Source: Thiothrix sp. UBA5583
Lineage (GTDB): Bacteria > Pseudomonadota > Gammaproteobacteria > Thiotrichales > Thiotrichaceae
Reading direction: 5' to 3'
NCBI GenBank assembly: GCA_002425225.1
Contig: DILV01000031.1
Span: 62,001 to 126,000 of the forward strand
DNA length: 64,000 bases
Within the stretch, counting starts at the first letter, position 1; every line of letters starts with the position of its first letter. The notes below the pieces were generated by a model, which saw only the letters and a list, made by a program, of their open reading frames with translations, was not told the DNA's origin and ran no database searches. A program made the translations under genes and the position numbers. This document shows positions 19,087 through 32,426 of the stretch, in pieces.

Positions 19087-19578
19087 TCACAGATAGAGCT
19101 TTTCCCTAAAAAAGCGTAGCAACAGGCTGCTGGCACAGATGGAATATTCACCGCTGCCCGGTTTGTCCGAACCCTCCCATTGCACCACCATCAAGCCGAA
19201 ATAATCAGCCAGCAGGGGGCGTATGTTGTTGCGTATCTGGTTGCCCCAGTACTGGTGCAGCGCCAGAATTTCCCGCTGTTCTTCCGGGGAGGTGTTTTCC
19301 CGGTTGGGGTTGCCCCCCAACAGGCGGACAAATTCGCCCTGCGACATGGCAGGCTTGCCGGTCAGCGCCCGGAACACCAATACCTGGGTAATGGTCAATC
19401 GTTCCGTGTTCAACAACCAGCGTTTGTTTTTGGCATAGGTGGCGGGGGATTTCCGCCGCTTTTCCAGCAATTCTGGCGAGTTATGTTCCAGAAACGGGAT
19501 GATTTCTGCCCATTGCGCCTGTCGCTGGAGGTCGGCTATCACCCTGCGTAGCATTTCACCGTCGCAGTCCGCTTGCAT
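19087..19578 (-). CDS. Hypothetical cytosolic protein
   Basis: A 163-residue protein without signal peptide or membrane segment. It is rich in charged residues and has a likely helical N-terminus (EMLRRVIADLQRQAQWAEII). The stretch LTITQVLVFRALTGKPAMSQGEFVRLLGG could be a winged-helix-like or other small fold; I cannot name a family. A GGAGAG site lies about 8 bases before the ATG. It is divergent from the DUF4360 genes and heads a two-gene unit with the 72-residue exported protein. Confidence 0.6.
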   Translation of the reverse strand: MQADCDGEMLRRVIADLQRQAQWAEIIPFLEHNSPELLEKRRKSPATYAKNKRWLLNTERLTITQVLVFRALTGKPAMSQGEFVRLLGGNPNRENTSPEEQREILALHQYWGNQIRNNIRPLLADYFGLMVVQWEGSDKPGSGEYSICASSLLLRFFREKLYL

Positions 19579-20433: not shown

Positions 20434-21201
20434 ATGATGAAACCAACAACCATATCCATTAGCCTGAACCCGGCAGGCAAGTTTACCGGTGCAAGTCTGC
20501 TGCTATTGGCGGCATTGGGTTTTGCCAATCAGGCCAATGCCGCCAGTGTAAGCCTGGGGCAGCCCAGTTATGGCGGTAGCGGCTGTCCTGCCGGTTCTGC
20601 TTCGGCTTCCGTCAGCCCGGATGGTAGCGCCCTCAGCGTGCTGTTCGACAGCTACACGGTGGAAGCCGGGGGTAGCAATCCACGGGTTGCCCGCAAAAGC
20701 TGCAACCTGTCGATTCCGGTGAAAGTGCCTAATGGCATGAGTGTTTCCCTGATCAGTGCGGATTATCGCGGTTTCACGGATCTGCCCGCTGGTGCTGATG
20801 CACGCCTGGATACCGAGTACTTTTTCGGTGGTTCGCGTGGCCCGGCGTTTTCCCATGCCTTCCGGGGCAGGCTCAGCAACACCTATACCCAGCGGCACGG
20901 CTTGCTGGCGGGGGCAGCGGTCTGGTCGGCCTGCGGGGCAGATGTCAACCTACGGGTGAATTCCGGCTTGACGGTCAGTTCAACAGGAACAGCCGCACTG
21001 GCAACGGTGGATTCGGCAGATTTCAGTGCCGGGATGGTTTACCACCTTCAGTACCGCAGTTGCGAGTCACGCCCGGTGCCACCACCAGCGAATAACACAC
21101 CACCTAGTTCCCATGCTCCGGCTTTCCCACCGGGACGGTTCGAGCGTGAACGCTTGCCCCGTATGCCAATGGAGTGGCGTCGCCCACGTCTTGAACGCTA
21201 A
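20434..21201 (+). CDS. Exported DUF4360 protein, copy 2, with Pro/Arg-rich tail
   Basis: A 255-residue paralog of the preceding gene. It shares VSPDGSALSVLFDSYTVEAGG, ARKSCNLSIPVKVPNGMSVS, LISADYRGFTDLP and SACGADVNLRVNSG. Its signal peptide is longer, and it carries an extra C-terminal tail of about 40 residues rich in Pro and Arg (RPVPPPANNTPPSS, then FERERLPRMPMEWRRPRLER). The tail is absent from copy 1 and could bind the envelope or DNA, or simply be a linker. The stop overlaps that of the convergent pseudokinase gene, so no terminator separates them. Confidence 0.85.
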   Translation: MMKPTTISISLNPAGKFTGASLLLLAALGFANQANAASVSLGQPSYGGSGCPAGSASASVSPDGSALSVLFDSYTVEAGGSNPRVARKSCNLSIPVKVPNGMSVSLISADYRGFTDLPAGADARLDTEYFFGGSRGPAFSHAFRGRLSNTYTQRHGLLAGAAVWSACGADVNLRVNSGLTVSSTGTAALATVDSADFSAGMVYHLQYRSCESRPVPPPANNTPPSSHAPAFPPGRFERERLPRMPMEWRRPRLER

Positions 21202-23684
21202 TCAGTTGGGGCATTGCGTGCAGGCGGCAGGTTTTCCTTGATGGCATCCAGTGGCACTTCCATTAGGCCGGGAACATCAGGGGTAAAACTGCCGCCTGTA
21301 TTTTTGCCTGTATCCGCAGGAATATCGAACACGGGTGGTGGCAGGTTAGGTTCGGTGGTTGCCGGTACGGGTGGAGCAGTGTCTTGCACAGGTGCTGGCA
21401 CAGGCTCAGCAGGTGGTGGTGGCACAACTGGAATGTCGATTTGCACTGGTGGCAGGTTGCCTGCATCGTTGGCAGGTACTGGTTGTGGTTCCGCGACCGG
21501 TACGTCAGGTGGCACGGTAACAACTTTGGGTGGAGCCGTGTCGGTCGGAGGTGTGATTGCCGGTTTTTCCGCAGGCTCGGGTGGAACTGGTTCGGGTTTA
21601 GGTTCCGGTCTGGGTTCTGGCTTTGTTTCTGGTTTCGGTGCAGGTTTACTGTCAGCCGCAGGTGCAGTTTCCGGTTTTGTCGGGCGGTTGCTGCTGGCAG
21701 CAGTATCCGGTTTGCTGTCGGTTTTGACAGCAGGTTCCTGACCTGATGGGAAAACACCCATTTGACCGGTATCGCGGTAACGTTTTTCCAGCGACAGTTG
21801 CTGTTCTACCAGATCGTCCAGCAGGTATTTGCCAATCAGTTGCTGACTGTTGTCCAGCAGGCTGCGGGCAGTTTCAGGATTATTCTTGCGCAGGGCACTC
21901 AGCGCCTGATCTTGCTGGGTGCGGGCGATGTCCTTGAGCAGCTTGATGGCTTCCGGGTGATTGGGTTGTTCTTGCAGCAAGGTACTAATATAGGCAACGG
22001 CACTTTCGCTGCGTCCGTCACCTTGCATCAGGTTGCCGTACTGCATGGCATTACGCGCACTATCCAGATAGGTTTGGACTTTTTGTGTGTCACGGTTGCC
22101 CTGTTCGAGCTGGCTTTCCAGCCTTACTTGCCGTTGCAGGCTATCGGTCAGGGCAAGTTCGCTAATCAGCTTGTCAGCATTCAGCAACAGTTTGCGGGCA
22201 TCTTCGGTCTTGCCAGCGGCAAGCAGGATGCTGGCTTCACTGTGCTGGTCATCTACCATACGGGCTGCCAGCTTTTTGGCGGCAGCATTTGCAGGGTCGA
22301 GTGCCAGTATTTTGCGTAACGGTTCAAGGGCGGATGGCTGACCGGGGGCTGGGTTGGTCAGCTTGCCTTGTTGCAAGGCCGTTTCTGCTTCCTGTAACAG
22401 TTTGTTGACTTCCTGGCGGCGAGCTTCGCTATTGGCGACTTCAGCAGCGACAGCTTCGCTGGCTGCTTTGGCGGCGGCATCGGCTGCCAGTTTGTCGGCT
22501 TCTGCTTTGGCAGTAAGCGTGGTTGCTACCCGTGAGCGGGCTTCGTTTTCAGCCGCAAGGCGGGCTGCTTCAGCGTTGACACTGGTTTGATCCAGCGGTG
22601 TGTGGGCAGCGGTTTCACCTATCAGGGATGGGGTGGTCGTCGTGCCACCGGGGGGCAAGGTCGCAGGTGGCAGACCAAGGTTGATGGGCTGGGCTGCTTT
22701 GGGTGGCTCAGCCGTCTGCATGAAACCGCTCAGGACATGGTAGCTGGCGTAAGCCACCACACTGGCAACCGTCAGAGCCGCAGCAGGCAGTAACAGGCGG
22801 GAACGTCTTTTCGGTTGCAAGGCTGATAGCAAGGCGGTCGGTGTCGGCTGGCGGACGCTGCGTTTCAGGTTCATGCCTTGTTGCAGGGGAACCCAAGTTG
22901 CCGGTTTCAGTTTACTGATTACTGACGGTGCAGCGTTGCGCACGGCGGCTTCCAGTGTGGTTTGCCTGCCAAAAGGGGCGTGCCCTTGCAGCAGGTTATA
23001 GGCGATACAGGCCAGTGAGAATGTGTCATCTGCCGAGGTTGGCTGATCGCCAAGTGCGACTTCCGGGCTGATAAAACCGGAGTGAAAGGTCTGGTGGTTG
23101 CCAGTGTGGGCAATAATGCCATTGCTGGCAAGGCGCAGAGCCGTAACAGCCGGTGCATTCAGCAGGCGGCAGCCATCTTCGCCAAACAGGATTGCACCGG
23201 GTTCAAGAAATCCGAATACCCCTTCCGGGCGGTGGTTGCCAACGGTGGCAGACAGCTCCTCAAGAATGCCCATCGCTTGTGCCAGCGGCATCCCCCGGTC
23301 ATCCAGTTCATGCATCCGTTCCGCCAGCAACATGCCCCGGATATTGCTAATGACCAGCCAGCGGGTTCCGTCCGCTTCCCGCCCGTTGTCGGTGATATAC
23401 GGTTGGGATGATACCTCTTTCTGATACGTGGGCAAGACCTGACGCAACGCCTGTTCAAACACGGAATTTTGTGTCAGTGCGGGCAAAACGGTGAAAACCA
23501 GTACGTTACCAGCTTCACAACCGGCAGGTTCCCGTTGCTGGTCACACGCCCACCACAATTTGCCGAGGGCTGTTTCTGCCATGCAACGGCGTAAGCCGTA
23601 GCGTCCGTTACCGATGGAGGAAAGGGTGGATGGGGCTTGTTCCATGTTCATGCTGTTGTCTTCGGAAGGGTGTGCAAAAGGCAT
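21198..23684 (-). CDS. Membrane-anchored pseudokinase with helical repeats and Pro-rich tail
   Basis: An 828-residue protein. Residues 25-290 read as a protein-kinase fold that has lost its active site. The catalytic-loop HRD is FGF (157-159, in GVFGFLEPGAILF), the loop Asn is Ala164, and DFG is NAP (176-178). The later landmarks FISPEVALG and DDTFSLACIAYNLLQGHAPFG survive. One transmembrane helix follows (about 297-320). Then come Ala/Glu-rich coiled-coil segments (370-460), TPR-like helices (450-640) and a tail of Pro-Lys-Glu repeats. The upstream neighbour on the strand is a putative papain-fold hydrolase. A scaffold or sensor role in the envelope is inferred. The start could also be the ATG at residue 12. 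Confidence 0.6.
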   Translation of the reverse strand: MPFAHPSEDNSMNMEQAPSTLSSIGNGRYGLRRCMAETALGKLWWACDQQREPAGCEAGNVLVFTVLPALTQNSVFEQALRQVLPTYQKEVSSQPYITDNGREADGTRWLVISNIRGMLLAERMHELDDRGMPLAQAMGILEELSATVGNHRPEGVFGFLEPGAILFGEDGCRLLNAPAVTALRLASNGIIAHTGNHQTFHSGFISPEVALGDQPTSADDTFSLACIAYNLLQGHAPFGRQTTLEAAVRNAAPSVISKLKPATWVPLQQGMNLKRSVRQPTPTALLSALQPKRRSRLLLPAAALTVASVVAYASYHVLSGFMQTAEPPKAAQPINLGLPPATLPPGGTTTTPSLIGETAAHTPLDQTSVNAEAARLAAENEARSRVATTLTAKAEADKLAADAAAKAASEAVAAEVANSEARRQEVNKLLQEAETALQQGKLTNPAPGQPSALEPLRKILALDPANAAAKKLAARMVDDQHSEASILLAAGKTEDARKLLLNADKLISELALTDSLQRQVRLESQLEQGNRDTQKVQTYLDSARNAMQYGNLMQGDGRSESAVAYISTLLQEQPNHPEAIKLLKDIARTQQDQALSALRKNNPETARSLLDNSQQLIGKYLLDDLVEQQLSLEKRYRDTGQMGVFPSGQEPAVKTDSKPDTAASSNRPTKPETAPAADSKPAPKPETKPEPRPEPKPEPVPPEPAEKPAITPPTDTAPPKVVTVPPDVPVAEPQPVPANDAGNLPPVQIDIPVVPPPPAEPVPAPVQDTAPPVPATTEPNLPPPVFDIPADTGKNTGGSFTPDVPGLMEVPLDAIKENLPPARNAPTD

Positions 23685-23703
23685 ACGCGCAAAGTTCCCG
23701 CAC

Positions 23704-23729
23704 TCAGGCCGCTGGTCAAAACGGCCTGA
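23704..23729. promoter_or_regulatory. Hairpin between the papain-fold-like gene and the pseudokinase gene
   Basis: TCAGGCCG pairs perfectly with CGGCCTGA (8 bp, 10-base loop) in the 101-base gap. Read on the minus strand it lies 20 bases before the pseudokinase start. It could be a partial terminator, an RNA-stability element or an operator. Confidence 0.4.
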
Positions 23730-23785
23730 TTATAGAGGATTTGTGGGATTAGCGCAGGCTAATGTGGATGGGCTGTTTGTTTCTA

Positions 23786-25279
23786 TCAGCGTTTGCGCAA
23801 TACATCTTCATGGAACAGTTGCCCGACTGCTTCCAGCCCAATCAGTTCGTCAGCATCGCCCCGGATGCTCGTCACCATGTGTGGTGGCACGAATGCGCCA
23901 TCGCCTTGTGCCTTGGGGGCAACGATCTGGTGGGCAGCCTGCAATTCCGGCTCAATAGTGGCGCGGAATTCTTGATAGGAACTGTAGTTGCGACGAACTT
24001 TTGCCACCAGTGTGTCAAACAGCATGACCAATTGGGGTGGTGGTGGGTTGGTGCGGCTGAAGCCCAGAGAGTGGAAAATGCCCGGTTTGAGCCACAGCAA
24101 CAGTTCTGCCTGTGCATTGGATACTTCCCAGGTTTCACGCCCGTCACGTGGAATAGCAGTCTTGATGAAATGGTCAATCATGTCAGCAGTATCCCATGGG
24201 TGGAACACCAGCCCGCCACCTGACAGTGGCCTGCCGGGCAGACGGTCTTTCAGGGGGGCAAGCCAAGCCGGGGCAGGTTCCAGTTCCACCAGCCGGTTTT
24301 GCTCGGTGTTCTGCATATAGCCATCAGTGCCGTTGCCGTAATAGTCCAGATGCTGCCCGTTTTTCCAGAAGGTCGCACCTTCATTCAGCATGGCTTGTAC
24401 CTTGAGCCATTTGCCAGCACCGAACAGGGCATCGACCGTGGCCTGATTGAGCGGGGCATTCAGACCGAGGTTGAGGGCAAGGTGCATCCCGGATTCGGAA
24501 CAATACACCTGTTCGGCTTGTCCGTGCAGGGTAGCCAGTGCGGTGCGGCTGCCCAGTACAGCATCCAGCACGTTGCTGCCGAATTCCATCACCTTGGCAT
24601 AGGTGTTGGTCATCAGGTTGTCGTTGCCGTTGTAGTCAGGCGGGAACTTGGTGACTTTCTGGAGCAACATTGCCCAGGTGCGGCAGTTGTTGATATAGGC
24701 TCGCTGTTCTGCCGGAGTAATGCCACCGATGAATTTCACCCGCCACAACAGGGAGGGGTAATCCTTGGGGTTGACGTGCCCTGCCGAATGCTGGTTGGCG
24801 TAACTGCGTGGGCTATCGGTGGCGACCATGCCATCCGCTACCCCGACATAGTTGCGGATGTGGGTAATACTGAACTTGAGCATTTCCAGCCCTTTTTCCT
24901 GATCATGGAAAACGGACTGTACTATCTGGCGGTTGCCGGGGTTATGGTGGGAGGAGCCGATATACCATTCACCCGGCTGGATGAAACGCAACAGATCGCG
25001 TTGCTTGGTTTTCCACACGTTTTGATAGGCAATCAGGCGCAAGTCCTGGTCGTTGTGGATGTGAGTGGGCACTTCCTCCCATTTACCGCCGATCTCAATC
25101 AGTTTGGTGACAAGTGAACGGTTGTTTTTGAGGGTGGCATCTTTCCACAAGGCTTGTGCCGCTGCCGGATTGATGTCGTAGGCAGAAGCAGGCAGCGGGC
25201 GGTCATAGCGCTGTTGCGGGTTTTGCTGAAAATGGGCATTGGCTTGTGCCAGAGTCAGGTCTGCAAGTCGTAAGGCCAT
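23786..25279 (-). CDS. Putative permuted papain-fold (NlpC/P60, YiiX-like) thiol hydrolase
   Basis: A 497-residue protein without signal peptide. I read a circularly permuted NlpC/P60 pattern. His140 sits in SITHIRNYVGVADGMVATDS (the usual H-V-G-I strand). LLWRVKFIGGITPAEQRAY comes next, then Cys260 in QVYCSESGMHLALNLGLN, which looks like the YCSEL motif of YiiX-type enzymes. The N-terminal 100 residues and C-terminal 200 residues are not recognised. Members of this fold cleave peptide, amide or acyl bonds. The call is inference from a short motif order; an unrelated fold is possible. It is divergent from the transglutaminase-like gene, with 178 bases between them for both promoters. Confidence 0.45.
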   Translation of the reverse strand: MALRLADLTLAQANAHFQQNPQQRYDRPLPASAYDINPAAAQALWKDATLKNNRSLVTKLIEIGGKWEEVPTHIHNDQDLRLIAYQNVWKTKQRDLLRFIQPGEWYIGSSHHNPGNRQIVQSVFHDQEKGLEMLKFSITHIRNYVGVADGMVATDSPRSYANQHSAGHVNPKDYPSLLWRVKFIGGITPAEQRAYINNCRTWAMLLQKVTKFPPDYNGNDNLMTNTYAKVMEFGSNVLDAVLGSRTALATLHGQAEQVYCSESGMHLALNLGLNAPLNQATVDALFGAGKWLKVQAMLNEGATFWKNGQHLDYYGNGTDGYMQNTEQNRLVELEPAPAWLAPLKDRLPGRPLSGGGLVFHPWDTADMIDHFIKTAIPRDGRETWEVSNAQAELLLWLKPGIFHSLGFSRTNPPPPQLVMLFDTLVAKVRRNYSSYQEFRATIEPELQAAHQIVAPKAQGDGAFVPPHMVTSIRGDADELIGLEAVGQLFHEDVLRKR

Positions 25280-25457
25280 GAGGTACTCCCCTTTATCATT
25301 GTTGCCATGCTATTGCTATAGACGTTTTCACCATGTTCTGCCAGCGGAAATGACGGCAGAATGTAAATTTATAGTCTAGATTAATCACTGTATGGCTGTT
25401 AGATAATTTTCACAATAGTAGCTTTTATCATCAAGCAATGTTAAGGGGTTAAGTACC

Positions 25458-27050
25458 ATGAATACGTTCAATACCCGCAAAATCAATGCCCATCTGGCGG
25501 CATTCCGCGCCGATCCGGTCAAATCCATGCAGGCCATTCCTCGCAAGTTTGACAGCAGTGGACAAGAAATCATCGCTTCAGGCCCTTTCGGGGTAGAAGA
25601 TGTCAAGGAAACCACCTATAGCCAGGGGCGCGACCAGTTGCGGCAGTCCACCATCAGTAGTGACACTACCCGTGCGGCTTATGCTGCCAATGACAATCCG
25701 CGCAATCTGGTTGATACCTTCAAGCATGAAACCCTGCCAGCCATCGAAACGGCGGGTTTGAAAACGGCACGCCTGAGCGAACAACCCTGGAGTGGTGATT
25801 ACTGGGCAACTGCTCAGGGCAGTCTTGGCAACCGCTACGCCGGATGTATGCCGTATGGCTGGAAGGAAGGTTTTGACTATATCCGTAACCATTCATCCAA
25901 AGTCATCCTCAACAGTGGCAGCGAAGTGTGGGTCAATGAACTGTCACCTGCCGAAAAATACGATGCCTTGGTCGGGGATGCTTCTGAAACCCTGACACGC
26001 ATGTCTTGGCTGAAAGGCAAAGCCTATTTTGAAAAACATGGCGAAGTTCCCGGCTGGTTTGGTATTTGCCACGGCTGGGCGGCGGCTGCCTACATGTTGC
26101 CGCGTGCCAAAAAGAGCGTGAAAGTGGTAACACCCGGCAATATCACTCTGACTTTCTTCCCCTGTGAAATCAAGGCACTGGCATCCTTGTTGTGGGCGGA
26201 ATCAAAACCGGTCACACGTTTTATCGGCGGGCGTTGCAATACGGAAAAACCGGCATTTGATCCGGCAACCGGGCGGGTAATTACCCTGTTCAATCCCTAC
26301 ATCGCCGCAGACATGCCGCCTGATATGCCACCCGATCCATCCGCCCCACCACCCGGCACGGAGGAGGTATCACTGTCCACCGAAAGCTGGAACGAGGAAA
26401 CCGGCGAACCCAATGGCAGAACTGGCGGGCGTCCCACCGAAGCTGGTTGTTTTGACACCAACCCCGGTTCCTGGCATCTGGCGATGGTCAATCAGCTTGG
26501 TGTTGCTAAGCGCAGCATGATCATGGATGCGAGTTTCGACTATCAGGTTTGGAATCAGCCGTTGTTGGGTTATACCTACACCTATTTCAACCCGCAAACT
26601 CTGAAGCAGACTGATGTGCTGAAAGATGCCACGGTCAGCCGCGCAGCGTTCAGCAGCGACATTTTCAAAAAATACCGTAGCTCTGCGGCAGCTTCGTTTG
26701 TAGGCATCATCATGAAAACTACCTACATGGGTGAAAACGGCAACGCGCAGGAGCATGAAGATACCCCGGAAAATGATGCCGTGATTGATGTTTACTACTA
26801 TTACGACCTTGAGCTGGATGCCAGTGGCAAAATCATCGGCGGTGAATGGTATACCAACGCCCATCCCGATTTCCTGTGGACACCGCCCAAGGGTGGGCGA
26901 GCCGTCAGCCGTTACGAAAACCTGTTGAGCGGCGAGTGGAAATCAGGTCAGGCCATGCCGGAAAGCTGGCGAGCTGCTGCGAAAAAAGCCTCGGCAGACC
27001 TGACTCCGTTGGCGGCGGTGGTCGAACATCTGCTCAAATTGGCACAGTAA
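25458..27050 (+). CDS. Transglutaminase-elicitor-like (TGase_elicitor) enzyme
   Basis: A 530-residue protein whose core matches the GP42-type transglutaminase elicitor family: GWFGICHGWAAAAYMLP with Cys204, then SWHLAMVNQLG with His340, then MDASFDYQVWNQP with Asp357. That Cys-His-Asp order is the papain-like transglutaminase triad. A Pro/Glu-rich insert lies at about 283-330. No signal peptide is present, unlike the secreted oomycete elicitor. The N-terminal 110 residues could be a propeptide or binding region. It is 30 bases upstream of the CHAT gene and surely cotranscribed. Possible action: crosslinking or deamidating a cell protein, or modifying a secreted target; not provable from sequence. 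Confidence 0.7.
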   Translation: MNTFNTRKINAHLAAFRADPVKSMQAIPRKFDSSGQEIIASGPFGVEDVKETTYSQGRDQLRQSTISSDTTRAAYAANDNPRNLVDTFKHETLPAIETAGLKTARLSEQPWSGDYWATAQGSLGNRYAGCMPYGWKEGFDYIRNHSSKVILNSGSEVWVNELSPAEKYDALVGDASETLTRMSWLKGKAYFEKHGEVPGWFGICHGWAAAAYMLPRAKKSVKVVTPGNITLTFFPCEIKALASLLWAESKPVTRFIGGRCNTEKPAFDPATGRVITLFNPYIAADMPPDMPPDPSAPPPGTEEVSLSTESWNEETGEPNGRTGGRPTEAGCFDTNPGSWHLAMVNQLGVAKRSMIMDASFDYQVWNQPLLGYTYTYFNPQTLKQTDVLKDATVSRAAFSSDIFKKYRSSAAASFVGIIMKTTYMGENGNAQEHEDTPENDAVIDVYYYYDLELDASGKIIGGEWYTNAHPDFLWTPPKGGRAVSRYENLLSGEWKSGQAMPESWRAAAKKASADLTPLAAVVEHLLKLAQ

Positions 27051-27080
27051 TCACCCAAGGCATCAACAACAGGGCACAAC

Positions 27081-30000
27081 ATGGAACCGATCAAGGTCAG
27101 TGGTAAGGTAACAGGCAAAAACATTGCGCAAAAAACCGGTGAAGGGTTGGAAGACATCCTGTCAGTCACCTGCCGTCAGGAAATCCAGGTCGAGGAAGCA
27201 CTACGCAGTAGCAGCAATGCAGTAGAACTCAAGGATACCGATGCCGATACGCTGGTAGAACTGGAGTTTGACGGTGGTTACAAGCGCTGGGTCAGAGCAG
27301 GGGATCTGGCTGCGCAGGCGAGCCAGGATCGCAAGCGTTCCAGCAGTACAGGCATCCTGCTTGGCCCTGGCAGTTTTGACACCAGTCGTAACCGGGGAGC
27401 GGTCGGGCTGGTACTGAAATTCCTGCGGGTGCTCGACATTGACCCGGTGGGGGATTTGAGTGATGCGATTGCCAGCCAGTTGGTGGAACAGCTCGAAACT
27501 CGTCGTATCGGTAAGCCCGGTCTGTTCCGTTGTGCCGACACCAGCAGTCTGAACTTGCAGGAAATCACCAGCAGCCACGAGCTTGATGCCAGCAAGCCCA
27601 TCCTGTTGTTCCTGCATGGCACGTTTTCCAGCACCGATGGCAGTTTCGGCGAATTGTGGGAATCGCGGCAAGGCTACAACGCTTCCGCCTACCTGCAACG
27701 CCTGTTTGCCCCGTATGGCAACCAGGTTTACGCACTGGAACACCATACCCTGACCGCCAGCCCGATCCAGAACGCCTTGCAGGTGGTACGGCTGTTGCTA
27801 CCCAAAACCCGCTTGCATCTGGTCAGCCATTCACGTGGCGGGCTGGTGGGGGAGTTGTTGTGTCAGGGCAAGCTGTTGCGTCGTACCCGTGAGTCCGCTG
27901 GCAAGTTTGTGGAATCGGATGACCTGTTTACCAGCGAAGAACTCAAGGCCTTCAGCACCCCTGAGCGGCAGGCAGACCATGCCGCCTTGCAGGAACTGGA
28001 AACCCTGCTGAAAGAGCGGCAAATCCGGGTGGAACGCTTTGCCCGTGTGGCCTGCCCTGGGCGCGGTACGGTACTGGCATCAGCCCGACTGGAAGACAAC
28101 CTGTCGGTCATGTTCAACATCCTCAATTTCATTCCTGCCCCGCGTTTTCAGGCGCTGGCAGAATTCGTGCGCATGGTATTGATGGCAGTGGCGAAAAAAC
28201 GCACCAACCCGCAGGAATTGCCGGGGCTGGAAGCGATGATTCCGAATTCGCCACTGGTTTATTTGCTGAACCGCCCCAACGTGCAACTGGATTCCGGCCT
28301 TGCGGTCATTGCAGGCAACGTCAAGGCGGCTTCGTTGTTGGGACATTTCAGGGAATGGGTATCCGAACGCTTTTTCGGCGAGGATAACGACTATGTGGTG
28401 AATACCGCCGGGATGTACGGTGGGGCGCAACGGGTGCAAGGGATGCGCTTTTACCTCGACCAGCGTGATGACAGCAGCCACTTCGGGTATTTCCGTGATG
28501 CGCAGGTGCTGGAACGCCTGATCAATGCACTGCAACGCCCTGATAACGATTTGCGTCTGCTGCCACTCAGGGAGGAAACGGACGGTAATCGTAGCCGTTC
28601 AGCCAGCACCGCCAACCGTGAGAAAAAAAGTACAGTGTATTTCCTGCCCGGTTTCATGGGTTCCACCCTGGCTGCCGGGGGCAATCCGGTATGGCTGGAC
28701 ATGGGGGCGCTGTCGTGGGGAGATTTTACCTACCTCAACATGGAGCAGACCGGTATCAAGCCGGATGGGGTGCTGGCAGCTTTCCGCCCCTTGCTGGATT
28801 TGCTGGAGGAAAATCACGAAGTCGTGGCATTCGCCTGGGACTGGCGGCGTTCAGTACTGGATGCCGGTCGCCGTTTCGGTGAAGCCCTGGAACGGGTGCT
28901 GGATGATGCCAGAGCCGACAACCGCCAGCCGGTGCTGAGGATACTGGCGCACGCTGCCGGTGGCATGGTTGTGCAGGGCATGATGGTGGAAATGCCGGGG
29001 GTCTGGCAACGCTTGCAACACGAGGCCGATTTCCGCTGTGTGCTGCTGGCGACCCCGCTGCAAGGTACGTATACCGCCGTGCAATTGCTGCTGGGTGAAC
29101 ACCGCCTGATCCGCCTGCTGGACATGGTGGACGGGCAATTGCCTGCCAGTGACCTGCTGGCAGCTCAGTTTGCTTCTTACCCTGGCTTGCTGGAACAACT
29201 GCCGCTGGCCTTTCTGGAAGAAAACCGCTGGTTTGCGCCACTGGGTGAACGTTTCGCCAACTGGCCTGCCCGTAACCTGCTGCCTGCTGCCTTGCGGGTG
29301 CGCAAGCAACTGGCAGATGTGCCCCTGGATGCGGATCGCTTCCAGTACGTGCATGGGCGTGCCCGCCTGACACCGGATGCACTGGAAGCTGACGGGCAGG
29401 GCTGGCGGTTGCGTGCCAGTGGTGAAGGTGATGGGGTAGTGTTGTGGGATAGCTGCAAAACCACCTTGCCGCAATGGTACATGCCGGTTGAACACGGGCG
29501 CATGATCAGTCACAAGGATTACCTGTCGGCACTGGTCAACCTGCTGGATGATGGTACGACCCGTAAGCTGGATCAGGTTCCGCCCCAGATCGGCAACACC
29601 GGTTCACAGTGGCTGCCGAAGATCAGTGCTGAACTGTTCCCGGATGAAAATGAACTGTTGGCAGCCGCGCTTGGCTACCATACCCGCCAGACTTTGGAAG
29701 AAGTACGCCCGCAGGTGGAAATCCGCGTACTACACGGCAATCTGGAATACGTGGCTTATCCGGTGGTGGTGGGGCATTACGAGGGTGATTCGATCCTTAG
29801 TGCTGAAGCGGTGCTGGACAAGCGCCTCAACGGGCGCATGAGTGAATTGTTACGTCTGGGGTTGTATCCGGGCGCATTGGGTACATCAGAAATTTTCCTC
29901 AATGCCCCCGGTCGCAAACCCGGCGGAGCTATTGTGGTGGGGTTGGGGGAAGTCGGCAAGCTGACGACCGGCGACCTGACAGCCACTTTCATGCGGGCGA

Positions 30001-32426
30001 TGATGAATTACACGCTGGAAGTTCGCGCCACGCTGGAAAAGCTGCATGAAAACCAGCAAGACGATAGCGATTTCATTCCGGTGCATGTTGCCAGCTTGCT
30101 GGTCGGCACAGTGGGTGGTGGCAGTATCGGGCTGGCAGATTCGATCGCAGCCATTTTCCGTGCCATTACCCGTACCAATGCCGCCTTGGGCAAAACCGAA
30201 GGGGGTGTGCGCCTGCGTTTGAGCGTAGTGGAGTTTATCGAGCTGTTTGAAGACCGGGCAGTGGAAGCGGCACGGCTGGTGCAGGACATGGTGTTGCATC
30301 CTGAATTCCGCAACGATTTCACCGTCAAAAACCTGATGAAAACCTTGCCGGGCAAGCGTCGGCGGGTCATGTATCAGGAACCGGCAGGGTGGTGGCGGCG
30401 TTTGCAGGTGGAGGCGGGTGACGATGGTTTGAAATATACCGCGCTGACTGATCGGGCGCGGGCAGAAATGGTGTTGCAGGCTACCCAGCGCAAACTGGTT
30501 GACCAGTTCATTGAGCGAGCTGTTTCATCCAGTCATGATGACCCGGATGTCGGCAAAATCCTGTTTGAGCTGCTGTTGCCACCTGCGATGAAAGAACAAG
30601 CGCCGAATGCAGAAAATCTGGTGCTGGTGCTGGATGCGGCAGCATCCGCTTACCCGTGGGAATTGCTCTACAACCGGCTGGATCTGGAATCGCAACCGCT
30701 GGCAGTGCGTGCCGGGCTGTTGCGTCAGTTGGCGGTGGGGCAATTTCGGGGGCAGGTGATCAATCCGATTGACCGCTCTGCACTGGTGATTGGCGACCCG
30801 CCGACCGATGGGCGTTTCGTACCTTTGCCTGCGGCACGGCAGGAGGCAGAAGCCGTTGCCAATTTGCTGGAAGAGGGCGGTTTCAGTCAGGTAGTGCGCG
30901 AGATTGCTTCCAGCCCGCAAGCCATCCTCAAGGCATTGCACACTGCCGATTACCGGCTGCTACATCTGGCAGGACATGGGGTTTATCAGTACAAACCCGA
31001 TGAAAACAGCGACTTGCTGGTCAGTGGCATGGTTTTGGGGGATGGCATTTTCCTGACGCCAGTGGAAATCGGGCAGATGCGCAAAGTGCCGGAATTTGCC
31101 TTCATCAATTGCTGCCATCTGGCGAAAATGGACAAGGAGACCGCAGGCGACCGCAGCAGGTTGGCTGCAAGTCTGGCGCAGGAACTGATCCGCATGGGGG
31201 TAAGGGCGGTAATTGCCGCAGGCTGGGCCATCAATGACGATGCTGCCAAGGTGTTTTCCGAAACCTGTTACAGCGCCTTGCTCAAGGGGCACACCTTTGG
31301 CAGGGCGGTGCTGATGGCGCGGCGTGAAACCTGGAGCCAATACCCCAACAGCAATACTTGGGGGGCTTACCAGTGTTATGGCGACCCTGATTACAAGCTA
31401 CTGAGCCGTAAACCCAACGAAACGGATGCCGACAAGCTGGCAGATGCCTGGCGTTTCGTTGCAGAAGTGGAAGTGGTGGCTGAGCTGCAAAACCTGATCA
31501 GCATGGCCGATACCGCACAAGCCAATGATTTCCCGTGGTTGCAGGAACGCTTGCAGCAGTTGCACCGTGCGATTCCCTCTGAATGGCTTAACCATGCAGA
31601 CATCCTGTACGCACTTGGGCGGGCTTACGGCAAGCTGGAAATGTTCGGCAAGGCGCTGGATGCCTACCGGGCTGCAATTGAGTCACCGGAATCCAATTAC
31701 CCGGTACTGTTGCTGGAAGACCGGGTAAGCCTGCAAACGGCCTGGGCACTCGCATGGAAACTGGGCAAGACCAGCGAGATACCGGATAGCCAGTTTGCGC
31801 AATCCCCGCAAGAGTTCATGGATGACAGCCTGAAAACCCTCAAGCTGCTGGACGGGTTGGGTAATAGCCAGAACCGGCTGGAAGGCGAAGGCAAATTCTG
31901 GAAGCGGCAGACGATGATGCAAAGCGGGGAGGAGCGTGTGCGAGCCTTGCATATGATGGAGATTGCCTATCGGCGGGCGCATGAATTTGCCCTGGAAGAA
32001 ACCGGCACACTGTCTGCCTATGCCCTGGTCAACTGGTTGACCAGTCGCATGATCCGCTACCTGCGTGGGCATCTCAAACAGCTTGACCGGCAGGAACTCA
32101 AAGGTTGGCTGGATCAGGTTACGCAAATTGCCGAGCAGTCTGACCGCACGATGCCCAGTTTTCTGACAGGGATTGCGCGGGCAGAATGTGCCTTGCTGCA
32201 TTACCTGCTAGGGGCGCGGTTGGCAGAAACCGAACAAGTCCAGCGGGTTGTACGTTTGTATGAAGAGTCGGTAGGGCGGGGGGCTGCACCCCGCCAGTTG
32301 CGTTACATGTCGGAGCATGTCAGTTTTCTACGCATGATGCTGGAGGAGCAAGTGCAGGCAGAGGCTTCCCCCCTGAAGCCGGTAGTGGTAGCTTTGGCAG
32401 ACGTGGAGGGGCAACTAAGTACCTGA
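27081..32426 (+). CDS. Giant protein: active-looking alpha/beta hydrolase, dead alpha/beta hydrolase, CHAT protease domain, helical tail
   Basis: A 1781-residue cytosolic protein. Residues 172-440 form an alpha/beta hydrolase (LLFLHGTFSS; nucleophile Ser251 in LVSHSRGGLVGE). Residues 515-825 form a second one of LCAT type (VYFLPGFMGSTLA) whose nucleophile elbow reads AHAAGG, so the Ser is Ala625. Residues 880-1090 include IVVGLGEVGKLTTGDLTATF, which recalls the N-terminal domain of M17 aminopeptidases. Residues 1165-1440 are a CHAT (caspase-like) domain with His1299 in LLHLAGHGVYQ and Cys1345 in AFINCCHLAKM. The last 330 residues are TPR-like helices. CHAT-TPR proteins act as triggered proteases in known defence systems. 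It follows the transglutaminase-like gene. Domain calls are by eye. Confidence 0.8.
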   Translation: MEPIKVSGKVTGKNIAQKTGEGLEDILSVTCRQEIQVEEALRSSSNAVELKDTDADTLVELEFDGGYKRWVRAGDLAAQASQDRKRSSSTGILLGPGSFDTSRNRGAVGLVLKFLRVLDIDPVGDLSDAIASQLVEQLETRRIGKPGLFRCADTSSLNLQEITSSHELDASKPILLFLHGTFSSTDGSFGELWESRQGYNASAYLQRLFAPYGNQVYALEHHTLTASPIQNALQVVRLLLPKTRLHLVSHSRGGLVGELLCQGKLLRRTRESAGKFVESDDLFTSEELKAFSTPERQADHAALQELETLLKERQIRVERFARVACPGRGTVLASARLEDNLSVMFNILNFIPAPRFQALAEFVRMVLMAVAKKRTNPQELPGLEAMIPNSPLVYLLNRPNVQLDSGLAVIAGNVKAASLLGHFREWVSERFFGEDNDYVVNTAGMYGGAQRVQGMRFYLDQRDDSSHFGYFRDAQVLERLINALQRPDNDLRLLPLREETDGNRSRSASTANREKKSTVYFLPGFMGSTLAAGGNPVWLDMGALSWGDFTYLNMEQTGIKPDGVLAAFRPLLDLLEENHEVVAFAWDWRRSVLDAGRRFGEALERVLDDARADNRQPVLRILAHAAGGMVVQGMMVEMPGVWQRLQHEADFRCVLLATPLQGTYTAVQLLLGEHRLIRLLDMVDGQLPASDLLAAQFASYPGLLEQLPLAFLEENRWFAPLGERFANWPARNLLPAALRVRKQLADVPLDADRFQYVHGRARLTPDALEADGQGWRLRASGEGDGVVLWDSCKTTLPQWYMPVEHGRMISHKDYLSALVNLLDDGTTRKLDQVPPQIGNTGSQWLPKISAELFPDENELLAAALGYHTRQTLEEVRPQVEIRVLHGNLEYVAYPVVVGHYEGDSILSAEAVLDKRLNGRMSELLRLGLYPGALGTSEIFLNAPGRKPGGAIVVGLGEVGKLTTGDLTATFMRAMMNYTLEVRATLEKLHENQQDDSDFIPVHVASLLVGTVGGGSIGLADSIAAIFRAITRTNAALGKTEGGVRLRLSVVEFIELFEDRAVEAARLVQDMVLHPEFRNDFTVKNLMKTLPGKRRRVMYQEPAGWWRRLQVEAGDDGLKYTALTDRARAEMVLQATQRKLVDQFIERAVSSSHDDPDVGKILFELLLPPAMKEQAPNAENLVLVLDAAASAYPWELLYNRLDLESQPLAVRAGLLRQLAVGQFRGQVINPIDRSALVIGDPPTDGRFVPLPAARQEAEAVANLLEEGGFSQVVREIASSPQAILKALHTADYRLLHLAGHGVYQYKPDENSDLLVSGMVLGDGIFLTPVEIGQMRKVPEFAFINCCHLAKMDKETAGDRSRLAASLAQELIRMGVRAVIAAGWAINDDAAKVFSETCYSALLKGHTFGRAVLMARRETWSQYPNSNTWGAYQCYGDPDYKLLSRKPNETDADKLADAWRFVAEVEVVAELQNLISMADTAQANDFPWLQERLQQLHRAIPSEWLNHADILYALGRAYGKLEMFGKALDAYRAAIESPESNYPVLLLEDRVSLQTAWALAWKLGKTSEIPDSQFAQSPQEFMDDSLKTLKLLDGLGNSQNRLEGEGKFWKRQTMMQSGEERVRALHMMEIAYRRAHEFALEETGTLSAYALVNWLTSRMIRYLRGHLKQLDRQELKGWLDQVTQIAEQSDRTMPSFLTGIARAECALLHYLLGARLAETEQVQRVVRLYEESVGRGAAPRQLRYMSEHVSFLRMMLEEQVQAEASPLKPVVVALADVEGQLST

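Follow-up and report, generated by a model that had tools for sequence, protein, structure and literature searches.

A CHAT-protease giant and an adjoining GP42-type transglutaminase in Thiothrix: a recurrent gene pair with a possible immune-type role

We analyzed a 64,000-nucleotide stretch of the genome of Thiothrix sp. UBA5583, a filamentous sulphur bacterium (GenBank DILV01000031.1, positions 62,001 to 126,000; hereafter the window), in which four neighbouring genes encode a giant protein with a CHAT protease domain (C), a transglutaminase (T), a His/Cys protein (P) and a pseudokinase (K). A survey of 63 genomes of the source's bacterial family (lineage Thiotrichaceae, hereafter the family), 16 of which are Thiothrix, indicated that this locus is composed of two mostly separate units, T-C and P-K, and that the four-gene set as such is mostly not conserved. 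The part worth following is the smaller, recurrent protease-transglutaminase pair. We tentatively interpret T-C as an immune-type CHAT protease with a transglutaminase partner and P-K as a separate unit that is sometimes joined to it, a reading to which we give a probability of roughly 0.4. The four open reading frames and the divergent gap between them, first delineated in a first-pass annotation of the sequence, were recovered with identical coordinates and strands:

27081..32426, plus strand: C, a giant of 1781 amino acids (DUF7379 alpha/beta hydrolase, LCAT-like hydrolase, M17_N of the macro clan, CHAT protease, TPR)
25458..27050, plus strand: T, a GP42-type transglutaminase (TGase_elicitor) of 530 amino acids with Cys204/His340/Asp357
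25280..25457, no strand: divergent intergenic region between P and T, 178 bp
23786..25279, minus strand: P, 497 amino acids, family-restricted, fold not assigned
21198..23684, minus strand: K, a pseudokinase of 828 amino acids encoded downstream of P; it has a single membrane segment, and its long tail is Pro-rich and weakly TPR-like

The protease giant and its transglutaminase neighbour

Pfam assigned CHAT (PF12770, E-value 2.2e-32, 113.1 bits against a cut-off of 24) and DUF7379 (1.3e-30) to C, together with an M17_N domain that scored barely above its cut-off (7.3e-6, 26.4 bits against 23.4), while LCAT (0.0011) and TPR remained below theirs. The parts of C are the following:

Residues 175-265, 27603..27875, plus strand: DUF7379 hydrolase part 1, nucleophile position Ser251 (SHSRGG)
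Residues 576-671, 28806..29093, plus strand: LCAT-like second hydrolase, serine position 625 being Ala in the window
Residues 896-969, 29766..29987, plus strand: Peptidase_M17_N domain without an aminopeptidase domain
Residues 1157-1435, 30549..31385, plus strand: CHAT protease, His1299/Cys1345
Residues 1506-1534, 31596..31682, plus strand: TPR, below cut-off

The protease dyad, which had been predicted from the window alone, was kept in all 31 rows of a motif table of giants (27 rows from 24 family genomes and four from plasmids). Giants were found in 33 family genomes, and those outside the table (G013, G016, G032, G037, G039, G044, G047, G050 and G056) had copies that were broken, partial or not used; the second giant of G060 was also left outside it. 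The serine of the first hydrolase was lost in three of the 31 giants (G062, G048 and G038) and that of the second hydrolase in five, where Ala replaces it in the window and either Gly or Cys does so in G031, G040, G042 and G054b. Since the dyad was retained in every row despite these lost serines, the protease is probably the constant activity of the giant, and its hydrolases apparently can decay without loss of the protein. M17_N is placed in Pfam's Macro clan, as far as the accessible text of PMC6500376 goes, and may be the ligand-sensing domain of C. TPR-S was present in the tail of four scanned relatives, and Pfam gave no match to a SAVED domain in C. The window's own genome (G000) contains a second alpha/beta-hydrolase and CHAT locus (contig C41, L112:4974-8823), composed of two adjoining genes, whose products are a DUF7379 protein and a CHAT protein that matches TCAD7 below threshold.

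T had been described as a transglutaminase-like enzyme with Cys204, His340 and Asp357, and this assignment was borne out by a Pfam match to TGase_elicitor (PF16683, 8.1e-31, 107.5 bits against a cut-off of 25), by an alignment with PDB 3tw5 (E-value 3.6e-34) in which the triad positions match, and by the invariance of all three residues in 13 of 13 aligned rows. In the 3tw5 chain, Ser occupies the position of the Cys, probably as a deliberate mutation in the solved protein. An insert of about 50 residues separates the Cys and His halves in the clade of window-type T and in its sister clade; its use as a mark of giant-adjacent copies was rejected, because non-adjacent T2 copies have the insert and adjacent g5 copies are without it. 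TGase_elicitor proteins were found in 36 of the 63 family genomes versus 3 of 369 genomes of the class, all three of them from the same bacterial family. Window-type T was present in 5 of the 16 Thiothrix genomes only, and the idea that it is a genus-wide partner of C was abandoned. Transglutaminase-elicitor enzymes are known from plant-pathogenic oomycetes. The literature under that name consisted, at the level of titles, of oomycete-centred work only, and the bacterial members therefore seem to be without an assigned role. The single plasmid match of T was a Vibrio record, in which a Vibrio owensii protein (L142:8929-10764) has TGase_elicitor fused to a ricin-type lectin domain. No relative of T or P was present in the viral contigs searched, and neither C nor T matched anything among phage records. 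In another genus (G038, contig C1, L106:5642-9040), the common transglutaminase is convergent to a 576-residue M17_N-CHAT protein without the catalytic Cys, possibly a dead CHAT regulator beside a transglutaminase.

Conservation of the pairs and of the four-gene set

T adjoined the giant in 8 of the 29 genomes that have both, and the two genes were on the same strand in all eight. T was upstream of C in G000, G057, G058 and G062, and the giant was upstream of T in G029-G032. In the window, 30 bp separate the two open reading frames; in the three fetched g5 loci the distances are 46, 45 and 5 bp. In a tree of T (31 rows), giant-adjacent copies fell into two separate clades and the supported branches forced two changes, a value as low as which was obtained in 0 of 500 shuffles. 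The tree leaves out G039, G042 and the Vibrio protein (missed by the motif filter), a partial G020 copy, several paralogues, and G027, G034, G043 and G046, for which no locus was fetched. The pair in G058 and G062 lies beside leuS and an LptE-like gene (read from proteins), unlike that in G000 and G057, and thus occupies two sites within Thiothrix. Giant and transglutaminase also co-occurred across the family (29/4/7/23, p 1.9e-7) and outside Thiothrix (13/4/7/23, p 6.4e-4), both values being uncorrected for phylogeny.

P and K, the second pair, were within 265 bp of each other in 10 of the 14 genomes with complete P, always on one strand and with P upstream of K. In the remaining four, the two genes are 1.3 kb apart (G051), separated by 5.7 kb (G057) or on different contigs (G058), or K is missing (G030). 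The P rows of G020 and G041, from split or short contigs, entered the co-occurrence test and stayed outside this gap table, and a 30-residue remnant of P in G052 was dropped throughout. The recurrence of both P-K and T-C at different sites, in more than one genus and with the same strand relation, argues against a chance neighbourhood of four unrelated genes joined by rearrangement, an explanation that fits the finding of all four genes side by side in a single family genome, the window's own, and that we regard as improbable. Chance may yet account for the joining of the two pairs to each other.

That same finding bears on the proposal of the first-pass annotation that the four genes form one system, which mostly falls because they are so rarely adjacent (1/63). 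In its fullest form, K would sense at the membrane, P and T would be enzymes and C the trigger, the set having been whole in an ancestor and scattered since. This is unlikely. On the one hand, (i) the order K-P-C recurs with the window's orientation, without T and at 34-42% identity, in G038; (ii) the four genes are also together in G057, where 5.7 kb separates P from K and holds a 1577-residue TIR-like WD40 gene (L094:150-4883), and P-T-C are together in G058; and (iii) a giant is present in 14 of the 16 genomes with P (p 0.0013, not corrected for phylogeny). On the other hand, searches up to 2 kb from C revealed no T and no P in 12 of the 16 Thiothrix genomes, P and C were that close in 4 of 11 genomes compared, and the association of P with the giant was not significant outside Thiothrix (4/2/13/28, p 0.17), nor did P correlate with window-type T within it (4/6/1/5, p 0.59). 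The P of G038 also lacks its Cys. What survives of the proposal is the recurrent position of T beside the giant and the K-P-C arrangement of G038. Because P-K persists without T and away from C, it is best treated as a unit of its own; a looser link between P-K and C is possible, since G038 and G000 share gene order.

For P itself, the first-pass annotation had suggested a permuted papain-type hydrolase with a Cys260/His140 pair. The residues held: His140 is invariant across 11 rows, and Cys260 is missing from one of them, that of G038. The fold (C92/YiiX) is unsupported: P matched no Pfam family, nothing usable in PHROGs and no PDB entry, hhalign gave no profile-profile match to 29 C92 proteins (the P profile being shallow, Neff 1.7), the papain-fold score was not clearly above shuffles (p 0.07-0.75), and two AlphaFold2 models had mean pLDDT values of 35.6 and 35.0. 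By eye, P resembles YiiX in motif order. Relatives of P were found in five genome records (four Thiothrix and one gammaproteobacterial metagenome-assembled genome), full-length P in 10 of the 16 Thiothrix genomes, and P in 2 of the 369 class genomes, both of the family; plasmid records gave no match. Homologues in other genera (L049, L122 and L123) are 642-655 residues long, being extended at the N terminus by about 150 residues; L122, the only one scanned, matched no Pfam family.

K is kinase-like in sequence (Pfam 1.3e-4, under the curated cut-off; PDB PknA 1e-5) and in this resembles PknA/StkP-type Ser/Thr kinases. It differs from them in that all 22 rows (16 genomes, six of them represented twice, with weaker kinase matches left out) have other residues at the HRD and DFG positions, by which K does not classify as an active kinase, and in that the ATP-lysine position, placed by eye, is Lys in the G038 row only. 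A conserved hydrophobic segment completes the degenerate, membrane-anchored kinase that had been predicted:

Residues 297-318 of K, 22731..22796, minus strand: membrane segment, hydrophobic and conserved

In G048, G062 and G058 (L104, L116 and L124), mutually related AAA ATPase genes adjoin K, and the one scanned (L104, in G048) has a sub-threshold bpMoxR match. Two further genes lie near K in the window:

19087..19578, minus strand: orphan neighbour of K, 163 amino acids, without a Pfam family
20434..21201, plus strand: DUF4360 protein

Relatives of the orphan also occur near K in G057, G058 and G038, and relatives of the DUF4360 protein recur near K in G057, G058, G048 and G062, the last two of which are without P. 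In the gap between P and T, one promoter-like site was found on the minus strand; promoter and terminator scans gave no clear excess over shuffles, with six promoter-like sites between 21 and 32.7 kb versus a shuffle mean of 4.8.

Relatives outside the family and known systems

Open frames of at least 1,500 amino acids with DUF7379 were found in at least 4 of 398 genomes of the phylum and, at E 1e-9, in 6 of 339 genomes of the class, the window's own genome being included in both counts; this cut-off misses the G038 giant, whose hydrolase is degraded. C matched 28 plasmid records, with a relative that covers at least 80% of C in seven, and five of the 28 neighbourhoods were read, four of them among these seven. 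Giants were located on plasmids of Paracoccus, Ensifer and Azotobacter. TIR, SIR2, STAND or caspase genes neighboured the protein in 5 of 11 informative neighbourhoods outside the family, a raw count without a background rate; a twelfth (G224) was cut by a contig end. The neighbourhoods are as follows:

Ensifer giant, upstream: Peripla_BP_4, nSTAND1 and SIR2 genes
Rhizobium, a CHAT protein that is shorter and has no hydrolases: TIR-nSTAND1-WD40 protein at one flank; GH108 adjoining, with an annotated TIR protein beyond
G192 giant: TIR
G338 giant: flanked by caspase and TIR-TPR at one end and by DUF4062-NB-ARC at the other
G656 giant: caspase-like gene 1.4 kb away
G168 giant: Amidase_2 and kinase
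Azotobacter giant: restriction-modification and Fic genes (by annotation)
Paracoccus giants (two): upstream gene for a large protein, which in one case has a solute-binding domain
G427 and G071 giants: no clear neighbour (by eye)

Peptidoglycan-hydrolase-type genes directly adjoin such CHAT proteins in two lineages (Amidase_2, L184:11415-14841; GH108, L141:11803-12420).

An immune-type reading of T-C draws on the recurrence and co-occurrence of T and the giant, the constant CHAT dyad beside lost hydrolase serines, these TIR, SIR2, STAND and caspase neighbours, the TIR-like WD40 gene in the G057 locus, and the pairing of caspase-superfamily domains with alpha/beta hydrolases in the VMAP systems discussed below. 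Several observations weigh against an immune-type T-C pair. The other six of these 11 neighbourhoods, two of them judged by eye, had no TIR, SIR2, STAND or caspase gene. C is present in every Thiothrix genome (16/16, its frames being broken in G050 and G056), which is unusual for a defence system. The window locus is not in a defence island: of nine flanking or nearby genes scanned, seven were ordinary (HSP90, SelR, DUF3429, M1 peptidase, methyltransferase, histidyl-tRNA-synthetase-like and MurJ) and two had no family, so that its surroundings look mostly like housekeeping where scanned. PADLOC gave only low-scoring CHAT and kinase matches on the locus. Lastly, T lies beside C in 4 of the 16 Thiothrix genomes only and is 13 kb away in G051; in 21 of the 29 genomes with both proteins they were not seen adjacent, many being on different contigs, and no copy of the common T paralogue was observed next to C within Thiothrix.

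Some of the same observations fit a module of cell physiology without a defence role, for example in protein modification of sheath, filament or envelope, in which the transglutaminase and the CHAT giant would process structural proteins. The presence of both C and K in 16 of 16 Thiothrix genomes, the mostly housekeeping surroundings, the concentration of transglutaminase-elicitor proteins in this family and the DUF4360-type neighbours of K are all consistent with it. A sheath role would, however, need export, since T and P start without an obvious signal peptide (as judged by sequence reading and hydropathy), and the giants on plasmids and near TIR, SIR2 and STAND genes speak against this explanation, which we consider rather unlikely.

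At the level of titles and abstract openings, the literature yielded no description of a CHAT-hydrolase-M17_N giant or of a CHAT-transglutaminase pair, and the locus was compared with systems that share some of its parts. According to the available text of Kaur et al. 2020 (PMC7159879), VMAP MoxR-vWA ternary conflict systems occur preponderantly in multicellular prokaryotes; every caspase-superfamily domain in them has an alpha/beta-hydrolase gene as its neighbour, and transglutaminase-like peptidases are rare alternatives. The locus likewise combines a protease of the caspase superfamily with an alpha/beta hydrolase; unlike in those systems, as far as that text describes them, protease and hydrolase are fused in one giant with M17_N, and the transglutaminase is of the GP42 family and encoded by a separate gene. 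On the same partial basis, the giant looks like such a caspase and hydrolase pair merged into a single protein. MoxR, vWA and VMAP were absent from the four genes by Pfam and from the subset of nearby window genes that was scanned. The accessible part of PMC10907252 also counts CHAT among the effector domains of putative conflict systems in multicellular bacteria.

With TPR-CHAT of type III-E CRISPR (Craspase), in so far as the sources at hand portray it, C shares CHAT, TPR and a protease dyad; it differs in its hydrolase and M17_N domains and in the adjacent gene, a transglutaminase. CRISPR-like direct repeats (at least 22 bases within 120 bases) were absent from 10-45 kb of the window; the rest of the genome was not covered, and Cas7-11 was not searched for. 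SAVED-CHAT proteins are similar in combining a CHAT protease with a possible ligand-sensing domain, and their PADLOC model matches C weakly (2.5e-5), although C has M17_N of the macro clan instead of SAVED. Finally, T is of the same family as the Phytophthora GP42 elicitor and has the same triad positions; unlike GP42, it is bacterial, has no obvious signal peptide, is encoded beside a protease gene and carries the insert of about 50 residues.

A possible mechanism and its meaning

That the protease of the giant is constant, while its hydrolases have partly decayed and the enzymes encoded next to it change, suggests that it acts through partner proteins, and in the source's family T would be the partner of the giant. 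If so, T-C, which looks like a two-gene operon and would be co-transcribed, may work in the following way. A signal would be sensed by the regulatory parts of C, namely the M17_N/macro-clan domain and the TPR tail, and sensing would free the CHAT protease, which might then cut T or another target. Crosslinking or deamidation by T, or the cut itself, would stop the growth of an infected or stressed filament cell or kill it. P-K, found beside C in a few lineages, may feed a membrane signal to the giant. The domains, the catalytic residues and the recurrence of both pairs are observed; that T and C are transcribed together, how C is activated, what it cuts and with what result, and any connection of P-K with T-C are what we infer from the sequences. 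It is possible that the CHAT protease of C acts on T; the more specific scheme of a caspase-type cascade, in which a macro-clan-gated CHAT giant proteolytically switches on a GP42-type transglutaminase and crosslinking stops infected filament cells, appears a long shot. The enzyme partner would be interchangeable, because a peptidoglycan amidase (G168) or a GH108 lysozyme-like gene (beside the shorter CHAT relative in Rhizobium) adjoins elsewhere.

A giant that keeps its protease dyad in every row, even where its hydrolases are broken, is a clear target for biochemistry, and the recurrent position of T beside a CHAT protease gives the bacterial transglutaminase-elicitor enzymes a testable role. 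If the proposed reading is true, protein crosslinking would be an output of a caspase-like bacterial pathway, and a dying filament cell could spare its neighbours.

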